DNA from: Phormidesmis priestleyi ULC007
GTDB lineage: Bacteria > Cyanobacteriota > Cyanobacteriia > Leptolyngbyales > Leptolyngbyaceae
Direction of reading: 5' to 3'
DNA: 64,000 bases
Assembly (NCBI RefSeq): GCF_001895925.1
Contig: NZ_MPPI01000017.1
Span: 1-64,000, forward strand
The first letter of the stretch is position 1, and each line of letters begins with the position of its first letter. This document shows, one piece after another, positions 50,999 through 58,679 of this stretch. The notes under the pieces are model-generated. The model saw nothing but the letters and a program-made list of their open reading frames with translations, did no database searches and was not told the origin of the DNA. A program made the translations under genes and the position numbers.

Positions 50999-51742
50999 TT
51001 AATAGTCGCTGCCGCTTAGACCGTCGATCGCCACAATTACGACGGTGATATTATCTCGCCCACCCTGCTCTTTTGCAGCGTTAATCAACGCAGAGGCGGC
51101 TTTTTCGCAAGCTTGAATCGGTTTAAGCTGATCGGTAATTCGCTGATCAGACAGTTCTTCGGTCAAGCCATCACTGCAAAGTAGAAGGCGATCGCCCGAC
51201 TGCACAGATAGCGACTTCACCTCAATTTGCTGGAGATCTTCTCGCCCCAAACATTGAGCCAGCACATGTCTGAGGGGATGGGTTCGCGCCTGATCGGGCG
51301 TGATCTCTCCCAAGCGCATTGCCCGTGCCACCCAAGTGTGATCTTCAGTCATCTGTTCAAGTTCTGAGCCACGCAGACGATAGAGCCGCGAGTCACCAAT
51401 GTGAGTGCAGAAAGGTTGTTCATCGCGAAAGATCACAACGACCACGGTCGTACCCATGTCCGATCGCTCTGGATGCTGCTTTTGATCGTCTAAGATCGCC
51501 TGATTTGCCTCTAGCAGCGATTTTTCTAGCAAATCTTGTGAGGGGAGCGTTGATTGCCAACGGGTGTCTAGACAAAACTGAATCGCTTGTGTTGCTAGAC
51601 GACTCGCTTCTTGCCCACCTGCATGTCCGCCCATGCCATCTGCCACAATAAAAAAACGCCCATCCGGATCGAGGTAATAGGCATCCTGGTTGACAGCACG
51701 GATTAACCCCGTATCAGTCATCCCTATAAAGAGGCGTTTCAT
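50999..51742 (-). CDS. PP2C-family Ser/Thr protein phosphatase
   Basis: A 247-aa metal-dependent phosphatase (Stp1/PphA type) with no extra domains. Motifs: IRAVNQDAYY, FFIVADGMGGHAGGQEAS (metal-binding Asp), GTTVVVVIF, THIGDSRLYRLRG, LCSDGLTEELSD and GGRDNITVVIV. It would remove phosphate from Ser/Thr on cytoplasmic proteins, such as PII in the case of PphA. It starts 32 bp after the UbiB gene and is the last gene of a run beginning with the CCA-type enzyme at 58679, which also contains a pseudokinase. The substrate is unknown. Confidence 0.94.
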   Translation of the reverse strand: MKRLFIGMTDTGLIRAVNQDAYYLDPDGRFFIVADGMGGHAGGQEASRLATQAIQFCLDTRWQSTLPSQDLLEKSLLEANQAILDDQKQHPERSDMGTTVVVVIFRDEQPFCTHIGDSRLYRLRGSELEQMTEDHTWVARAMRLGEITPDQARTHPLRHVLAQCLGREDLQQIEVKSLSVQSGDRLLLCSDGLTEELSDQRITDQLKPIQACEKAASALINAAKEQGGRDNITVVIVAIDGLSGSDY

Positions 51743-51774: not shown

Positions 51775-53748
51775 TTAGGGCATTCTCTCATAGCGATCGA
51801 GCTTAACCAGCAGTCGAATTAACACGATCGCGACAGCAAGAGCCGCCACCGCCATGGCGAGGGCTAACCAGGGATAGCCATTGACAAACAAAATAGTCGC
51901 TGAAACCGTAAACGCAGAGGTCAGCAGGGTGTAATTTGTGCCCATATTTACGCCACTGATGCGCCGTAAGACCCGATCGGTTTCGGTTGAGCGCACTCGA
52001 ACGCGAATATCGCCTCGCTCTAGCTTGTCTAGCGTGTCTTCGATGCGGCGGGGCAACCCAAAGGCAGTATTGCCGACCTGCACAGCCTGACGGCTTAACT
52101 CATTCAACAGACTGCCTGCTTCCGAGGAAGAATTTCCATTTGTCATAAGCTGCATTGCAAAAGGTTTTGCAACCTCCATAAAGTTAAACTCTGGGTCTAA
52201 ACCTTTGCCTACACCTTCTAAGGTTGAGAAGGCGCGCATCACAAAGGTAAATGTAGCAGGAAATCGAAACGGCTGATCGTAGGCAATTTCATATAAATCG
52301 TCGCTGATGGCGCTCACAGACTGATCTTCAAAGGGTTTGTCCATGAAGTTGTCTAACATGAACTGCACCGATCTCCGCACCGGACCCATATCATCGGTAG
52401 GGGCTAAGGCTCCGAGTGCAATCAGTGACTCAACGACGCGATCGGCATCTTTTTGAGAGATCCCAAAGAATGTGTCTAACAACTTTTCACGTGTGATTGC
52501 CTGCACCTGCCCCATCATGCCAAAGTCATAGAAAATCAGAGAACCATCGGGGCTGACTGCAAGATTGCCTGGGTGGGGATCGGCGTGAAAAAAACCATTG
52601 TCGAGCAGTTGATGTAAATAGGCTCTAGCACCCATTTGGGCGAGTTCTTTGCGATCGAGTCCAGCAGCTTCTAAGGCTTCATAGTGACTAATCTTGATCC
52701 CCGGCGCATACTCTAAGGTCAAAACACGAGGAGACGTGTAGCGCCAATAAACTCTAGGCACTTTTACCCAATCCATGCCTCTAAAATTGCGACGGAACGT
52801 ATCTGCGTTGCGTCCTTCGTTGAGGTAATCGATTTCTTCCCAGAGAATTTTGCAGCACTCGTCGTAGATGCCCAACCAGTCGCGCCCCTTGCCCCACTCT
52901 GGATGATTTTGAAAATAGCGAGTGATGCCTTTAAGAATTTGTAGATCAATCTCAAACAGCTTGCGAAGTCCGGGACGCTGAATTTTAACAACAACCTCTT
53001 CGCCAGAATGCAGTTGGGCCCGATGAACTTGCCCTAGACTGGCGGCAGCCAGCGGAATTGGGTCAAAGCTGCGAAAGAGTTCTTCGATCGATTTCCCTAA
53101 ATCTTGCTCAATAATTGATTCGACCTGCTCATAGCTAAATGCCGGAACTCGGTCTTGCAGCTTTGACAACTCTTCAACAAACTCTGGAGCAAATAAGTCA
53201 GCTCGCGTTGAAAAAAGCTGCCCGATCTTGATGAATGTGGGCCCAAGGTCTAGCAGCGTCTCGCGAATCCAAACAGCTAGAGTGCTGCGTCTCGCTGCCT
53301 TTTTTTCGTCTGAGATGCCGCCCTGATAGCTCCAAGACTTTTTATAGAGCCATCTCGCCCCCAACAATTTAAGCACAAATGCCCAAATGTCAATGAAGCG
53401 ACCTCGGCGCGAATAATTTTCCCGACTCCAGCGATAGGCTTTGGCTGAGTGAGGTTTTCCCATCGATTTGTGTGCTCTATCAGCCATTGTAGAGGTCGAT
53501 ACTACGGAATTATCTAAGGGATGTAGTGAGGGTTCAACTGCATATAATTCTGCCTGGTCATCGCTATGTGTCTGCTTGATTTCAGACGAGGTGCCGAGTG
53601 GATGGCGTACAGTTTCCCCGGTTAGGGACTGGAGATCGTGCAGGTCAGCATCCACTGCTGGTGGCTTCGCCGTTTCTGTCAGGATTTGGCTGGGCGATCG
53701 CTGAGGCTTACTGGAGTCATTTGGAGAAACAGACACTCGACTTTCCAA
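51775..53748 (-). CDS. UbiB/ABC1 family atypical kinase
   Basis: A 657-aa protein. The first ~115 residues are polar and probably disordered. The ABC1 domain follows: RETLLDLGPTFIKIGQLFST is the KxGQ motif, then PLAAASLGQVHRAQLHSGEE (Ala-rich nucleotide loop), VVVKIQRP (Lys), GFFHADPHPGNLAVS and LIFYDFGMMGQV (DFG). The C-terminus has two membrane helices (LLTSAFTVSATILFVNGYPW, ALAMAVAALAVAIVLI). Members in cyanobacteria and plastids act in plastoquinone or prenyl-lipid metabolism and in stress responses; direct substrates are not established. It follows the DUF6825-like gene by 53 bp and precedes a PP2C gene by 32 bp. Confidence 0.93.
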   Translation of the reverse strand: MESRVSVSPNDSSKPQRSPSQILTETAKPPAVDADLHDLQSLTGETVRHPLGTSSEIKQTHSDDQAELYAVEPSLHPLDNSVVSTSTMADRAHKSMGKPHSAKAYRWSRENYSRRGRFIDIWAFVLKLLGARWLYKKSWSYQGGISDEKKAARRSTLAVWIRETLLDLGPTFIKIGQLFSTRADLFAPEFVEELSKLQDRVPAFSYEQVESIIEQDLGKSIEELFRSFDPIPLAAASLGQVHRAQLHSGEEVVVKIQRPGLRKLFEIDLQILKGITRYFQNHPEWGKGRDWLGIYDECCKILWEEIDYLNEGRNADTFRRNFRGMDWVKVPRVYWRYTSPRVLTLEYAPGIKISHYEALEAAGLDRKELAQMGARAYLHQLLDNGFFHADPHPGNLAVSPDGSLIFYDFGMMGQVQAITREKLLDTFFGISQKDADRVVESLIALGALAPTDDMGPVRRSVQFMLDNFMDKPFEDQSVSAISDDLYEIAYDQPFRFPATFTFVMRAFSTLEGVGKGLDPEFNFMEVAKPFAMQLMTNGNSSSEAGSLLNELSRQAVQVGNTAFGLPRRIEDTLDKLERGDIRVRVRSTETDRVLRRISGVNMGTNYTLLTSAFTVSATILFVNGYPWLALAMAVAALAVAIVLIRLLVKLDRYERMP

Positions 53749-53801: not shown

Positions 53802-54128
53802 TTAAACAGAACGGCTGCGATAGACTTGCAGGGCTGATCGGAGTTGGGCAATTTCAGCGCGAAGTTCATCGATCGTGGCTTGCAGATCTTCAGTTTGAGA
53901 GCCTACACGCACACCAGTCGAAGCCGTTCTTGCTTGCATCGCAATCTCTTCTTCACGGGCTGCTCTTTCAGCCACCTGATCGACAAAAGTCCGTAAGTTT
54001 TCTCTCTGCTCGGCATCAAACTTGCCCAACTCACTCAGGGCATTTGTGACCCCATTTTCTAGCTGTTCGTAAGCAATCTCGGCGATCGCTCGACCGACAA
54101 AAAAAGCATGAATCAGGGAATTATTCAT
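53802..54128 (-). CDS. DUF6825-like conserved small protein
   Basis: A 108-aa protein from the ATG at 54128; a TTG just upstream is also in frame. The sequence SLIHAFFVGRAIAEIAYEQL is followed by LGKFDAEQRENLRTFVDQVA and ends with a coiled coil (EDLQATIDELRAEIAQLRSA). This resembles the cyanobacterial/plastid family I recall as DUF6825; the family name is from memory. It has no signal peptide or membrane helix. It is the third gene in the run CCA-type enzyme, pseudokinase, this gene, UbiB, PP2C. Function is unknown. Confidence 0.7.
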   Translation of the reverse strand: MNNSLIHAFFVGRAIAEIAYEQLENGVTNALSELGKFDAEQRENLRTFVDQVAERAAREEEIAMQARTASTGVRVGSQTEDLQATIDELRAEIAQLRSALQVYRSRSV

Positions 54129-54194: not shown

Positions 54195-55871
54195 TTAAAG
54201 TTTGGGGTCTTCTGGGATAGTTGGCACCACGACTGACCCGCGAGTGGTGCCAGTAGAAGGCTTGGCGGGAGGCACAGGATCAGCTACGTCCGCAGGAGCC
54301 GGGGCGGGAGCGATCGGCGGTGCACTTGGAGCGGGAACAGTCGGGATCGGTTCGGGTTGCGCTGTCGGGACAGCAGGAGCCGGTTTTGTGATGGTTGATT
54401 GACGAGGCGCTGTCGATCGAATGGGTGGCGCGATCAATTCCTCTGGAGCGGTCACCTTGCGAGGCGGCGCGTCGTCTGAAAACCTTGAAGCGGATGAAGC
54501 ACTTTGAGGAGATGCCAAATTGTTGCGATAATCGCCCGGAGTTACACCTGGTTTCTCGATCGGGACATCAGACACGTCTCCTTGAGGGCTTAGCGTCCCC
54601 TTCCAATCTTTTGAAGGAAAGGCTTGGTCTGGGTGAAAGAAACTGGCACCTGGAGCTTGAGCGGCACTAAAACGCAGAGCTAACCCGAAGCCAATTCCGA
54701 TCGAGACGGCGGCAGCACTGGTCAGCCCAATAAACTTAGGAAGATGTCGGCTGATTTCGAGCGGGATAGTCATTGATGTGAAAGCCAGCTTACGGGTTGT
54801 AGATGCTGAAATTGTTTTGGGCACAGCAGGTAAAGCTTCCTGAACTGCTGGCGCGATCGCTAAAGGTGCCGTTAAGCGCTCACTTTCTTGAGAAACCACG
54901 GGTTTAGTGGGTTCTCGTTTAGGGAGAACGGGTAAAGCGGTGGCGGTTCCGGCGGAGTTGCGCTCTGCGCTAATCGCCGGAGAAAGCGGCTTTGCAACCT
55001 CTAAAACTGGCTCCATGATTGGGGCATCTTTTTGAGCAGGTTGACCCGGAAGAGGAGCCGCTATTGCCGTGACAGACTTGAGCGGAACGGCTTCGCTGGG
55101 CAGTAAACGGAGCCAAGCGGCGATCGTGGAGGGGCGACGAGTCAGATCAGAGGTCATGCCTTGCAAGATCGCTTGCTTGAGTGCCGGATTCCACGCTTCT
55201 GGGTCTAGCTGAGGAGAGCGTCCTGGAGCGCGAGCAGACAGCAAATAATAGAGAATGGCAGACAGCCCGTAGAGGTCGATCGCAAATCGATTATCAGCAC
55301 CCCAAAGCGCATCAGGTGGCGCAAAATCATTAGAGTCAAAAATGTTGGTTTGAGGAGGGCTGACCGCACTCGCAACCTCGTGGGCGATTCCGAAGCCCAC
55401 CAGCACGGCTAGATGAGTTCCGGGTCGGCGAATAATTGACTGAGGATTAAGATTGCGGTGAATTAACCCATTGTGATGGGCGGTGTCGATCGCCGAGCCA
55501 ATTTGTCGAATGTAGTGAATCGCTTCGGCTTCAGGCAATGCCCCTTTGGATTTCACCACCTCTGCCAGCGTTTGCCCTGGCACATGCTCCATCACTAAAA
55601 AGGGCAGGTTTTCTTCTTGAAAAAAGTCGAGAACGCGGACAATGCTGGGATGCTGACTTCTAGCAAGGAGGCGCGTTTCTTCGACAAAACGCTGGTGCAA
55701 ATGAGGAAAGCTACGAGTCACCTGCAAACTAGCATCAAGCGTCTTGATCACAACGGCTTGATTTAAGAGCGTTTGGGTCGCGAGGTAAGTCGCCCCAAAG
55801 CCCTCTTCTCCCAAAACTTGATTTAAGAGATACTTTCCGCCTTGTAGCGTTGATCCTGGTTTTAGCTTCAT
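54195..55871 (-). CDS. Ser/Thr pseudokinase with membrane anchor and Pro-rich tail
   Basis: A 558-aa protein from the ATG at 55871 (MKLKPGSTLQGGKYLLNQVL). The kinase-like domain spans about 15-270: G-loop LGEEGFGATYLA and Lys43 (VVIKTL) are present. The catalytic loop reads LIHRNLNPQS instead of HRDxKPxN (Asp140 replaced by Asn), and the DFG motif reads LVGFGIA (Asp159 replaced by Gly). Without both aspartates, catalysis by the usual mechanism is not expected, so it is probably a pseudokinase. A membrane helix (FIGLTSAAAVSIGIGFGLAL) comes at about 380-400. The tail is Pro/Ala-rich (PAPAVPTAQPEPIPTVPAPS) and probably periplasmic or lumenal. It sits between the CCA-type gene and the DUF6825-like gene. 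Confidence 0.9.
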   Translation of the reverse strand: MKLKPGSTLQGGKYLLNQVLGEEGFGATYLATQTLLNQAVVIKTLDASLQVTRSFPHLHQRFVEETRLLARSQHPSIVRVLDFFQEENLPFLVMEHVPGQTLAEVVKSKGALPEAEAIHYIRQIGSAIDTAHHNGLIHRNLNPQSIIRRPGTHLAVLVGFGIAHEVASAVSPPQTNIFDSNDFAPPDALWGADNRFAIDLYGLSAILYYLLSARAPGRSPQLDPEAWNPALKQAILQGMTSDLTRRPSTIAAWLRLLPSEAVPLKSVTAIAAPLPGQPAQKDAPIMEPVLEVAKPLSPAISAERNSAGTATALPVLPKREPTKPVVSQESERLTAPLAIAPAVQEALPAVPKTISASTTRKLAFTSMTIPLEISRHLPKFIGLTSAAAVSIGIGFGLALRFSAAQAPGASFFHPDQAFPSKDWKGTLSPQGDVSDVPIEKPGVTPGDYRNNLASPQSASSASRFSDDAPPRKVTAPEELIAPPIRSTAPRQSTITKPAPAVPTAQPEPIPTVPAPSAPPIAPAPAPADVADPVPPAKPSTGTTRGSVVVPTIPEDPKL

Positions 55872-55934: not shown

Positions 55935-58679
55935 TCACGAGTTTGGGGCATGGTGCTGTGCCAAATACGCCTCAGCTTCGGCTCGATCGTGCACTCTCCC
56001 ATCCAAAGTTGCTGACAGCAAATCGTCTAAAATCTGCTTAAATTGCCGACCCGGTTTGTAGCCCAAAGCTTTCAAATCGTTGCCGTCTAAAGGTGGCTTT
56101 ACGGTTGACCAAATCGTCAAATAACGCCAGATTTGCTTACGAATAGCACGAGAACTCTTGACCGCAACCAAAATCAAAAGCGGCAGTTCATAGGGCTTTA
56201 AATATTGCACAATTTGGCTTGGCGACAGACTGATCGACAAGGATTCCAGCTTAGATCGAACGGGTTCTAGCTGAACTAATCGATCGATGCCATCGGCAGA
56301 AAGTTGCAGGTTTTGAGCAACGGAGGCACGATCGTCAGGTGCGAGATGCGCGATCAAAACTTCTAAAAGCAATTGCCAAGATGGTAGAAGTTGCGAACGA
56401 TCAAGCCGATGCAGCCAACGATCGGCTGACCGCAGTTGCCACCTCAATTCATCGTCTAGCTCTAATTTGGGATGAATACAGCGCAAAGCTCCCAGGTGTG
56501 CTAATTGGTTTAAAGCTGCTTTCCAATAAGACGATTGCAGTATGTATTTGAGTTCTGATTTGAGACGAGTTTGCAGGGCAGGGGCAATGACTCGACCCGC
56601 GACTTGACGATCTTGGATTTGTTCGTAAATGCCACTCGCGATCGCGTGACGAATATAGCGTTCGGTCTGTGGCTCAATCTCAAATCCTAATCGGGTGGCA
56701 AACCGGACGGCTCGATAAATTCGAGTCGGATCTTCAATAAAACTGTTGGGGTGTAAGACGCGAATTTGCTTTGCCTGCAAGTCTAGCGATCCGCCAAAGA
56801 AGTCTAGCAATTCGCCCGGCCCCTTGCGGGTATCTGCGAAGCGCGGATTAGTCAGCCGCAGCGCCATTGCATTGATGGTGAAGTCCCGACGATAAAGATC
56901 TTGACGAATTGAACTCGCCTCAACTTCTGGGTTTGCCGCCGGGTATGGATAAAACTCAGTTCGGGCGGTGGCAATATCAACCCACAAAGAGTCGAAGGTT
57001 GGATCTTTGTGCCATAACAGCGCCGCAGTTTGAAACCGTCCGTGAATATCTAAACGCACATCGGGATAGAGACGTTGCAGCGATCGCGCTAACTCCACCC
57101 CCGCGCCGACATCAGCAGAACGGTGAAACCCATCGACGACTAAATCAATGTCGGTCAACATCACGGGTTGATCAGAATCGGTCAGCAGCAAATCGCGCAC
57201 GGCTCCGCCCACCAGATAGAGATGCCAGCCGTGCTGTTCTGCCTGGTTTGCGGCGATCGACAAAAATTCTTGTAAATGAGCAGAAAGCCGATCGAGGCTG
57301 ATTTTGGATTTTGGACTTTGAAGGGTGGATTTTGAGTGGTTGTCAGGTCTTTGGTTAGTGTCAGCTTGATGAAGTTGCCGCAGCACGTCTGTGCGAGTCA
57401 CAATGCCGACGAGTTGCCCTTGATCTAAAACGGGTAGGCGACCAATATCGTAAGTCACCATTAATGACTCGATTTCTGGCAGTCGGGCATCAGGCGCGAT
57501 CGTCTTTAAGTTCGTGGTCATATAGCCTTTAACCGGGGCATGACCAAACCCGTGATAAAAAGCTATATCCAAGTCGCGACGAGAAATAATTCCGACTAGT
57601 TGATCATTGGCATCTACGACTGACAGCCCAGAATGACCATAGCGCAATAGAATTCGTTGAGCTTCGTCGATCGTCGTGTCAGGACGAATCGTGCGAACTG
57701 GCGATGACATCAACTCTCGTGCCGTTAGAGATGGCGGAATCTGAGCCTCAAACTGGGTGAGCAGCTGCGTCAAGATTTCCTGAAAATCACCATCCCGCAA
57801 AGTCAGCGCGGCAGCTTTGGGGTGTCCGCCTCCGCCCCAGGGTTTAAACAATTCGTTGAGGTTGGTGCCTTCGATGCGCGATCGCCCAATCACACTCAAA
57901 ACGTTGGCTTCATTCACTCGGCAATCGACTCCCCGGCAATAGCGATGCAGCAACAGCAGCGCATCACTTTCGGTCAACTCCACTAATCGAGAGGCGAGAC
58001 TCGAAAGCCCAGGCACATAGTCATCGGTTTTGAGAATCACCCAAGAAACGGTGTAACCCTGAACGGTTTTGGATTGCAAATTTTCGAGTGCCACTCCTAG
58101 TAAGTCTTGCAGCGTGGGTGAGAGTCCGGGATCGATATACTCTGCGATCGCCCTTAAATTAGCTCCTTGCCCCATCAGCCACGCTAACGCCGACGCATCT
58201 CTGGGAGTGGCATGATCAAAGGTTAGAGAACCTGTATCGACGTGAATTCCGAGTGCCATTGCCGTCGCCTCGATCGCCGTCAGCAAAATTTGCGCGATCT
58301 GAAGTCGCTCAACGATTAAAGTGGTCGTAGCCCCAACCGCTTCAACGTGGCGGTCTTGGGCAAAAATATCGCTCTCTGTATCCGAGTGATGGTCATAAAG
58401 CGTAATCGGGATATCTGGCAAATCTAACCATTCTGCAACTTTGCCCAAACGATCGCGCCGTTGACTATCGACCACCGACAGCGATCGGATGCTTTGCGGA
58501 TTCACCGATCGCCGCTCAATCAAGGCATATTCATCTCGATGCAGAGCCAGAAAATCTCGTACGGTAGGATGCGCTCCTCCTGCCAGCACAATTCGTGATC
58601 CCGGCAAGAGGCGAGATAGCCCGATCGCCGCACCCAACGTATCGAAATCTGCCGTGATATGACATAGAATCAGATCCAT
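55935..58679 (-). CDS. DHH phosphoesterase - CBS - CCA/poly(A) nucleotidyltransferase fusion
   Basis: A 914-aa protein in three blocks. The N-terminal DHH/DHHA1 phosphoesterase (about 1-310) contains [19 protein letters not shown]-like residues, [24 protein letters not shown], and [16 protein letters not shown]. Two CBS domains follow (about 315-435; [40 protein letters not shown]). The C-terminal class II nucleotidyltransferase has [44 protein letters not shown] and the RNA-binding region [14 protein letters not shown]. In some cyanobacteria and in Aquifex CC-adding and A-adding enzymes are separate, so this could complete or start tRNA CCA tails. It is the first gene of a five-gene minus-strand run. 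Confidence 0.93.

Follow-up and report, generated by a model that had tools for sequence, protein, structure and literature searches.

Genes and Features of the Locus

The gene discussed here lies in a 64,000-nucleotide stretch of the Phormidesmis priestleyi ULC007 genome (the window), where an open reading frame on the minus strand (54195..55871), confirmed with its coordinates, encodes a pseudokinase of 558 amino acids. Its start is the ATG at 55871, at which M-x-L is seen in seven aligned orthologues, and an alternative GTG is located 15 bp upstream. The protein consists of a kinase-like domain (about residues 13–258; 55098..55835), delimited by Pfam PF00069, an alignment to PknB and the family alignment, of a TM-like helix (about residues 381–399; 54675..54731) followed by Arg400, and of the family motif Q416-A-F-P...W423 (54603..54626), which is found just C-terminal of the helix by pattern, profile and alignment. 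The remainder is a variable Pro-rich tail (54198..54602), recognized by its composition and by comparison with orthologues; all of these parts are on the minus strand. An earlier note on this DNA had described a membrane helix and a Pro-rich tail, and indeed the helix, placed by hydropathy and motif alignment, has a best 19-residue Kyte–Doolittle mean of 1.85, while the protein beyond the kinase domain contains 17% proline. A scan of the genome contigs with the window gene returned one locus only, and the nearest relative in the genome set is P. priestleyi BC1401, the protein of which is 72% identical.

The gene is part of a same-strand run in the order tRNA nucleotidyltransferase, kinase, DUF6825, ABC1 kinase and PP2C, with gaps of about 30–70 bp. 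The upstream neighbor (55935..58679, minus strand) is an A-adding tRNA nucleotidyltransferase-like gene, which scores below the equivalog cut-off and is backed by synteny. Downstream, likewise on the minus strand, follow genes for a DUF6825 protein of 108 amino acids (53802..54128; PF20711, E 5.9e-37), an ABC1-family atypical kinase (51775..53748; PF03109, E 2.3e-87) and a PphA-like PP2C phosphatase (50999..51742; Stp1/IreP family model above cut-off). The run and the phosphatase had been pointed out in the earlier note, but the ABC1 gene, described there as a UbiB-type kinase, is not a member of UbiB, since its product scores 384.8 against an equivalog cut-off of 487.55. The DUF6825 gene between the kinase and ABC1 genes was absent from that note. 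The closest PDB relatives of the PP2C protein are 5iti and 2j82 (E about 2e-80), solved chains that we take to be tPphA.

The order DUF6825-ABC1-PP2C is the same as that of sll1769-sll1770-pphA, where pphA is presumably sll1771, so that the correspondence is one of gene order: by this order the ABC1 gene corresponds to SpkI, and the DUF6825 gene is probably PG18/sll1769-like. In Synechocystis, sll1770 is SpkI and is located upstream of pphA, whose product is the PII phosphatase, with the PII kinase described as still unidentified (PMC11863333). A further source gives sll1769 as the homologue of the plastoglobular protein PG18, a cyanoglobule protein that increases in Anabaena under nitrogen deficiency (PMC12923008). 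Within a set of 60 loci, 59 of them placed by DUF6825 matches and one by its kinase, the ABC1 gene is present in 59 and the PP2C gene in 53. DUF6825 was found in 106 genomes, for part of which neighborhoods were taken. A same-strand kinase was detected with the kinase profile at most 3 kb upstream of DUF6825 in 44 of 87 loci, a set rich in the window's own family, while 42 had none and one stretch was too short. No promoter-like or terminator-like minus-strand site is listed in the gap between the kinase and DUF6825 genes, which lends weak support to an operon.

A Kinase Fold Without Its Catalytic Residues

The kinase-like domain has a Hanks-type fold with both lobes, as judged by its PF00069 match (residues 21–229, E 1.9e-29), and the family HMM aligns to it over columns 2–258 of 258. 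Among solved structures it is closest to PknB, StkP and PknE/PknA; single-sequence structure prediction for residues 1–279 gave a mean pLDDT of 35. The β3 lysine Lys43 (55743..55745, minus strand) and Glu65 of helix αC are kept, while HRD is replaced by H138-R139-N140 (55452..55460, minus strand) and DFG by GFG (G159–G161; 55389..55397, minus strand), such that Asn140 and Gly159 occupy the positions of the two aspartates. The asparagine of the catalytic loop is lost as well (Ser145). Both the HRNLNPQS loop and the VGFG motif had been noticed before with the numbering found here, and of the further statement that the G-loop and Lys43 remain, the latter part is correct, whereas the G-loop is kept in part only: it reads LGEEGFG (GxExxG), with Glu23 at the second glycine. 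Pseudokinases have been defined by the loss of at least one of the β3 Lys, the HRD-Asp and the DFG-Asp (PMC12599244); in the window protein both aspartates are gone and the lysine is present. With the HRD-Asp, the catalytic-loop Asn and the DFG-Asp all lost from the encoded protein, we infer that phosphotransfer is absent.

The genome has 28 kinase places with 27 scorable domains; apart from the window gene, three of these domains deviate at HRD or DFG. A second pseudokinase gene (L178; G000 C48:91484-92236, minus strand) has Glu for the β3 Lys, HQN for HRD and IQFG for DFG, and together with the window gene it makes up the two that lack both aspartates among the 27 scored domains. Two tandem kinase genes are located at G000 C33:31832-33370 (L164, minus strand), of which one is intact and the other reads INFG at DFG, and a short piece of kinase sequence that contains an in-frame TGA and has IAFS at DFG (L177; G000 C62:141396-141860) is probably a broken kinase. 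An active Hanks-type paralogue (G000 C29:56297-57214) shares 46% identity with the window protein over residues 6–300, and like it has a C-terminal TM-like helix and a Pro-rich tail. By contrast, its HRD, Asn and DFG are intact, the Q-x-F...W motif is missing and the gene lies at another locus.

Conservation of the Substitutions Among Orthologues

The comparison set comprised 49 kinases of the window locus and 27 paralogues, the latter being the nearest ones and, from the window's genome, the kinases with the highest scores, rather than a random sample. Most of the 49 orthologues were recognized by synteny; L011, L032, L043, L044, L150 and L152, from short or divergent stretches, were placed by the tree and partly by the tRNA nucleotidyltransferase neighbor. 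Of the 42 searched genomes in the window's family, 39 are represented among them, while outside the set G131 gave no match at threshold and G134 and G138 no usable orthologue. In a tree built without the catalytic columns and including 19 paralogues, the 49 orthologues form one group with support of 99/95 (96/86 in an earlier tree of 33 and 25 rows).

Both aspartates are kept in 11 orthologues, one is lost in 13 and both are lost in 25, as compared with 27/27 paralogues that keep both. Unaltered HRD and DFG triplets are found in only six of the 11 (L053, L065, L073, L107, L108 and L152), the others reading for example HQD/DYG, HCD/DYE or HRD/DVN. The minimum number of changes on the tree is five at HRD and six at DFG, a parsimony count that does not distinguish loss from regain; unless Asp has been regained, its loss appears to be recurrent. 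The window clade of 12 genomes and its sister clade of six (branch support 96/93) carry Asn and Gly at the two positions in all 18 members (12/12 and 6/6). Since these near orthologues share the substitutions and dN/dS is well below 1, a sequencing error is rejected. The earlier note had named intact orthologues combined with an error here as what would overturn its proposal; orthologues with both aspartates occur, but only further away, and losses common to 18 genomes under purifying selection uphold the pseudokinase status. A pseudogene was also rejected, since the frame is uninterrupted in all 12 members of the clade and dN/dS is 0.08–0.19 in three pairs.

Lys43, Glu65 and an acidic residue at position 23 (11 Glu, one Asp) are each present in 12/12 members of the window clade, and the catalytic-loop Asn is replaced by Ser, Thr or Ala in all 12. 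The domain could have kept nucleotide binding or another catalysis through these three residues, such as an ATP-dependent modification other than phosphorylation, and some bacterial pseudokinases, among them SelO and SidJ, are active enzymes according to a review (PMC12599244). We consider this improbable in view of the absence of both aspartates and the catalytic-loop Asn from the entire clade and of the persistence of relatives without a C-lobe (see below). The reading we prefer is that the domain serves as a non-catalytic docking or dimerization module, with conservation of the Lys43–Glu65 pair. Glu65, on the other hand, is kept in 0/6 of the sister clade and 20/31 other orthologues, which counts against it.

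Constraint on the Kinase Domain

Whole-gene dN/dS (Nei–Gojobori) is 0.19, 0.17 and 0.08 in three pairs of pseudokinases and 0.16 in an intact pair, and for the N-lobe the pseudokinase pairs give 0.13, 0.05 and 0.03; the pseudokinase values are rough, since dS is close to 1 or higher. For the window pair, 0.13 in the N-lobe compares with 0.16 in the activation segment, a slight difference that speaks against a docking function mainly by the N-lobe. When the active paralogue and the window gene were measured in one and the same genome pair, the paralogue was more constrained, both in the N-lobe (0.03 vs. 0.13) and in the late C-lobe (0.04 vs. 0.19), so that relaxed constraint accounts for some of the pattern. 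Mean pairwise identity among the 12 pseudokinases is 0.79 in the N-lobe, 0.68 in the catalytic loop and 0.48 in the activation segment, as compared with 0.69, 0.90 and 0.79 among 18 paralogues; because the two sets differ in depth, it is the contrast within each set that counts.

The lower likeness of the activation segment and C-lobe and the faster evolution relative to the active paralogue would be expected if the kinase domain were a decaying remnant, with the TM helix and Q-x-F-P...W doing all the work and loss of the domain to follow as in other lineages. Both lobes are nevertheless found in 12/12 clade members (the match of G019 to the profile extends as far as column 220 of 258), the N-lobe ratios are low in all three pairs, Lys43, Glu65, Asn140 and Gly159 are invariant over 12 genomes, and some 30 positions that are fixed within the clade differ from the paralogues. 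Together with the kinase-less relatives described below, decay is the most serious of the alternatives, albeit an unlikely one.

The back-to-back dimer contacts of PknB, which we take to be R10, L33 and D76, map to Lys13, Leu36 and Asp82, each conserved in 12/12 of the window clade; the same positions in 18 active paralogues hold Lys in 17 and Arg in one, Leu in 18 and Asp in 18. Leu36 is kept in only 1/6 of the sister clade and 12/31 other orthologues, which argues against dimerization by this surface as a general property.

The TM Helix and the Q-x-F...W Motif

Directly C-terminal of the TM helix, the Q-x-F...W pattern is found in 42/49 orthologues (12/12 of the window clade, 5/6 of the sister clade and 25/31 others) and in 0/27 paralogues, and the motif profile recovers two of the pattern misses (G012 and G029). 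The hallmark of the family is therefore the helix with Q-x-F...W and not catalysis. The window protein has this arrangement, and its gene adjoins those for the tRNA nucleotidyltransferase and DUF6825, a placement seen in many family members, if not all. Constructed from 42 members that have a kinase, the motif profile was applied to 6834 ORFs alongside 20502 shuffled decoys (best decoy E 0.23), and it uncovered further ORFs just upstream of DUF6825. Six of these neighbors of DUF6825 are short and kinase-less, with E values from 2.9e-14 to 1.3e-3: L105 (232 aa, E 2.9e-14), L089 (99 aa), L082 (227 aa), L077 (207 aa), L062 (203 aa) and L093 (238 aa, E 1.3e-3). A Pfam scan of the first five gave no match. 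At E 0.01 the motif alignment matches 105 of the 194 genomes that were sampled from the class, including eight weak matches (E 0.0017–0.0085) that were not taken further (G026, G038, G099, G126, G157, G168, G200 and G211). In a phylum sample of 59, 6/21 class members and 3/38 others (TM part only) were matched.

Possible Stepwise Loss of the Kinase Domain

For classification one locus was taken per genome, giving 122 loci, of which 112 have a motif ORF and 10 none at threshold, although in several of the 10 the motif is visible in some form (L084, L083, L088, L068 and L109). Among the 112 motif ORFs, 25 have both aspartates, 46 are pseudokinases, 18 retain the N-lobe only and in 23 a kinase is not detectable; these 23 include L048 and L081, with a kinase in a separate ORF just upstream, L201, which lies close to the end of its contig, and six ORFs that may hide remnants below the profile threshold (four long ones of f13, 464–562 aa, and two of f24). 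In L048 (G009) and L081 (G066) the kinase and TM-motif parts thus lie in different ORFs, through a break in the frame, fission of the gene or an error in the draft.

Family f24 contributes 15 of the 18 N-lobe-only loci, in 14 of which the match to the kinase profile reaches column 84–96 of 258 and in one column 41, and the β3 Lys is replaced by Gln (13) or His (2). The isolated N-lobes of L182, L185, L192, L193, L196 and other f24 loci are joined to the TM-motif tail; Pfam found no match in L182, L185 and L193, the three proteins scanned. In L181 (a full-length pseudokinase) and L182 the gene follows the tRNA nucleotidyltransferase, with no DUF6825 in the stretch. The other three N-lobe-only assignments are remnants in f13, where the tRNA nucleotidyltransferase, DUF6825 and ABC1 neighbors are kept in 19/19 loci and the motif ORFs range from kinase remnants through to nine kinase-less proteins of 177–278 amino acids. 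DUF6825 lies in the fetched stretch of 71/112 motif ORFs and is missing from that of 41/112, including all 18 of f24, many stretches being only 5 kb; the link to the operon is thus not universal.

A widespread cyanobacterial TM/Q-x-F-P...W family might therefore have had its kinase domain dismantled stepwise in separate lineages, from a kinase with both aspartates via a pseudokinase and an isolated N-lobe to no kinase, with the window gene in the pseudokinase state, function residing in the retained core and the isolated N-lobes acting as stand-alone modules, a reading to which we give even odds. Loss is favored over gain by fusion, since kinases with both aspartates occur in several families and several of them join outside most pseudokinases, on a tree (25 family rows of 28 intended, three falling outside the motif filter; f13 rows L077, L082 and L105 omitted, their kinases being unrelated ones from elsewhere in the stretch) whose backbone is unresolved and which holds the wider family together weakly (81/36), a limit on the direction of change. 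For the window gene itself, the 23 motif ORFs without detectable kinase, with the caveats given, and the N-terminal kinase remnant of L063 (G035), missed by Pfam and detected by the family profile, fit with the decay of the domain weighed above.

Relation to Known Kinases and Pseudokinases

The PASTA receptor kinases PknB and StkP have an N-terminal kinase domain and one TM helix. They share the kinase fold with the window protein and include its best solved relatives, but the latter has no PASTA domains and has lost the catalytic residues; membership in the PASTA kinases (PknB/Stk1) is rejected by a score of 135.4 bits against the NCBIfam cut-off of 450 and by the lack of PASTA in the Pfam scan. 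Bacterial pseudokinases have been reviewed (PMC12599244). In that review MviN (ActPs3), a mycobacterial pseudokinase, has a role as a scaffold and forms a back-to-back dimer; it has lost the β3 Lys (VALT) that the window protein keeps, and the architectures differ as well. The review also describes the CP1 pseudokinases of cyanobacteria and proteobacteria, which show mixed degrees of motif loss, lack TM regions and are linked to COG3899 (PMC12599244). The window protein was rejected as a member of CP1, given its TM-like helix and a Pfam scan that shows only Pkinase and PK_Tyr_Ser-Thr and no sign of linkage to COG3899.

Cyanobacterial Ser/Thr kinases without the catalytic Asp were noted in 2007, and SpkE (slr1443) of Synechocystis is, like the window gene, one of them (PMC2176072). 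SpkE, one of five such kinases, was reported there as inactive and later as active on casein and other substrates (PMC11863333), so that residual true kinase activity despite the substitutions might be argued for the window protein, too. It is a different gene, however, outside the sll1769-sll1771 run by its gene number and likened to the window gene by description only, and members of the window clade have lost both aspartates together with the catalytic-loop Asn; we regard such activity as highly improbable. While pseudokinases as such are known, the TM/Q-x-F-P...W kinase-like family is defined here: in the accessible portions of the open-access literature we recognized no description of it, nor of cyanobacterial proteins with a kinase N-lobe on its own.

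A Putative Membrane Adaptor

The reading that we favor, with a probability of about 0.6, is that the product is an adaptor in the membrane, with a kinase domain that in this case is non-catalytic and has been kept for docking or dimerization, probably in the service of the PG18-SpkI-PphA operon. It would be a single-pass membrane protein with a cytosolic Hanks-type kinase domain incapable of normal phosphotransfer, the fold acting mainly via its N-lobe. The losses and their conservation, the full-length frames, the helix with its motif and the gene order are observed. A scaffold or sensor role, as proposed in the earlier note, is plausible on these grounds, and is strengthened by homologues without a C-lobe or any detectable kinase that keep the TM helix and motif. 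These two elements form the conserved core of the family, and Q-x-F-P...W would be placed on the side of the periplasm or thylakoid lumen, where it may bind a partner or sense a state; the invariant Arg right after the helix, by contrast, does not favor a C-out topology. The output would probably go either to the products of the adjacent genes (PG18-like, SpkI-like and PphA-like) or to the paralogous kinase that is active. That loss of both aspartates is not unique to this gene, a second kinase gene of the genome lacking both, counts against the adaptor reading.

Taken as a whole, the family resembles a natural series: catalysis is lost, then the C-lobe and then the whole domain, while the membrane part and, in many genomes, the neighbors stay. 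Since some orthologues at the same locus have the catalytic residues and others lack them, the roles of a bacterial kinase domain other than phosphorylation can be tested directly. Among the neighbors of interest are pphA, for the PII phosphatase of a system whose kinase is reported as not yet identified (PMC11863333), and PG18, the cyanoglobule protein (PMC12923008). If the stepwise dismantling is true, the conserved function would be that of the retained TM/motif core and not phosphotransfer.
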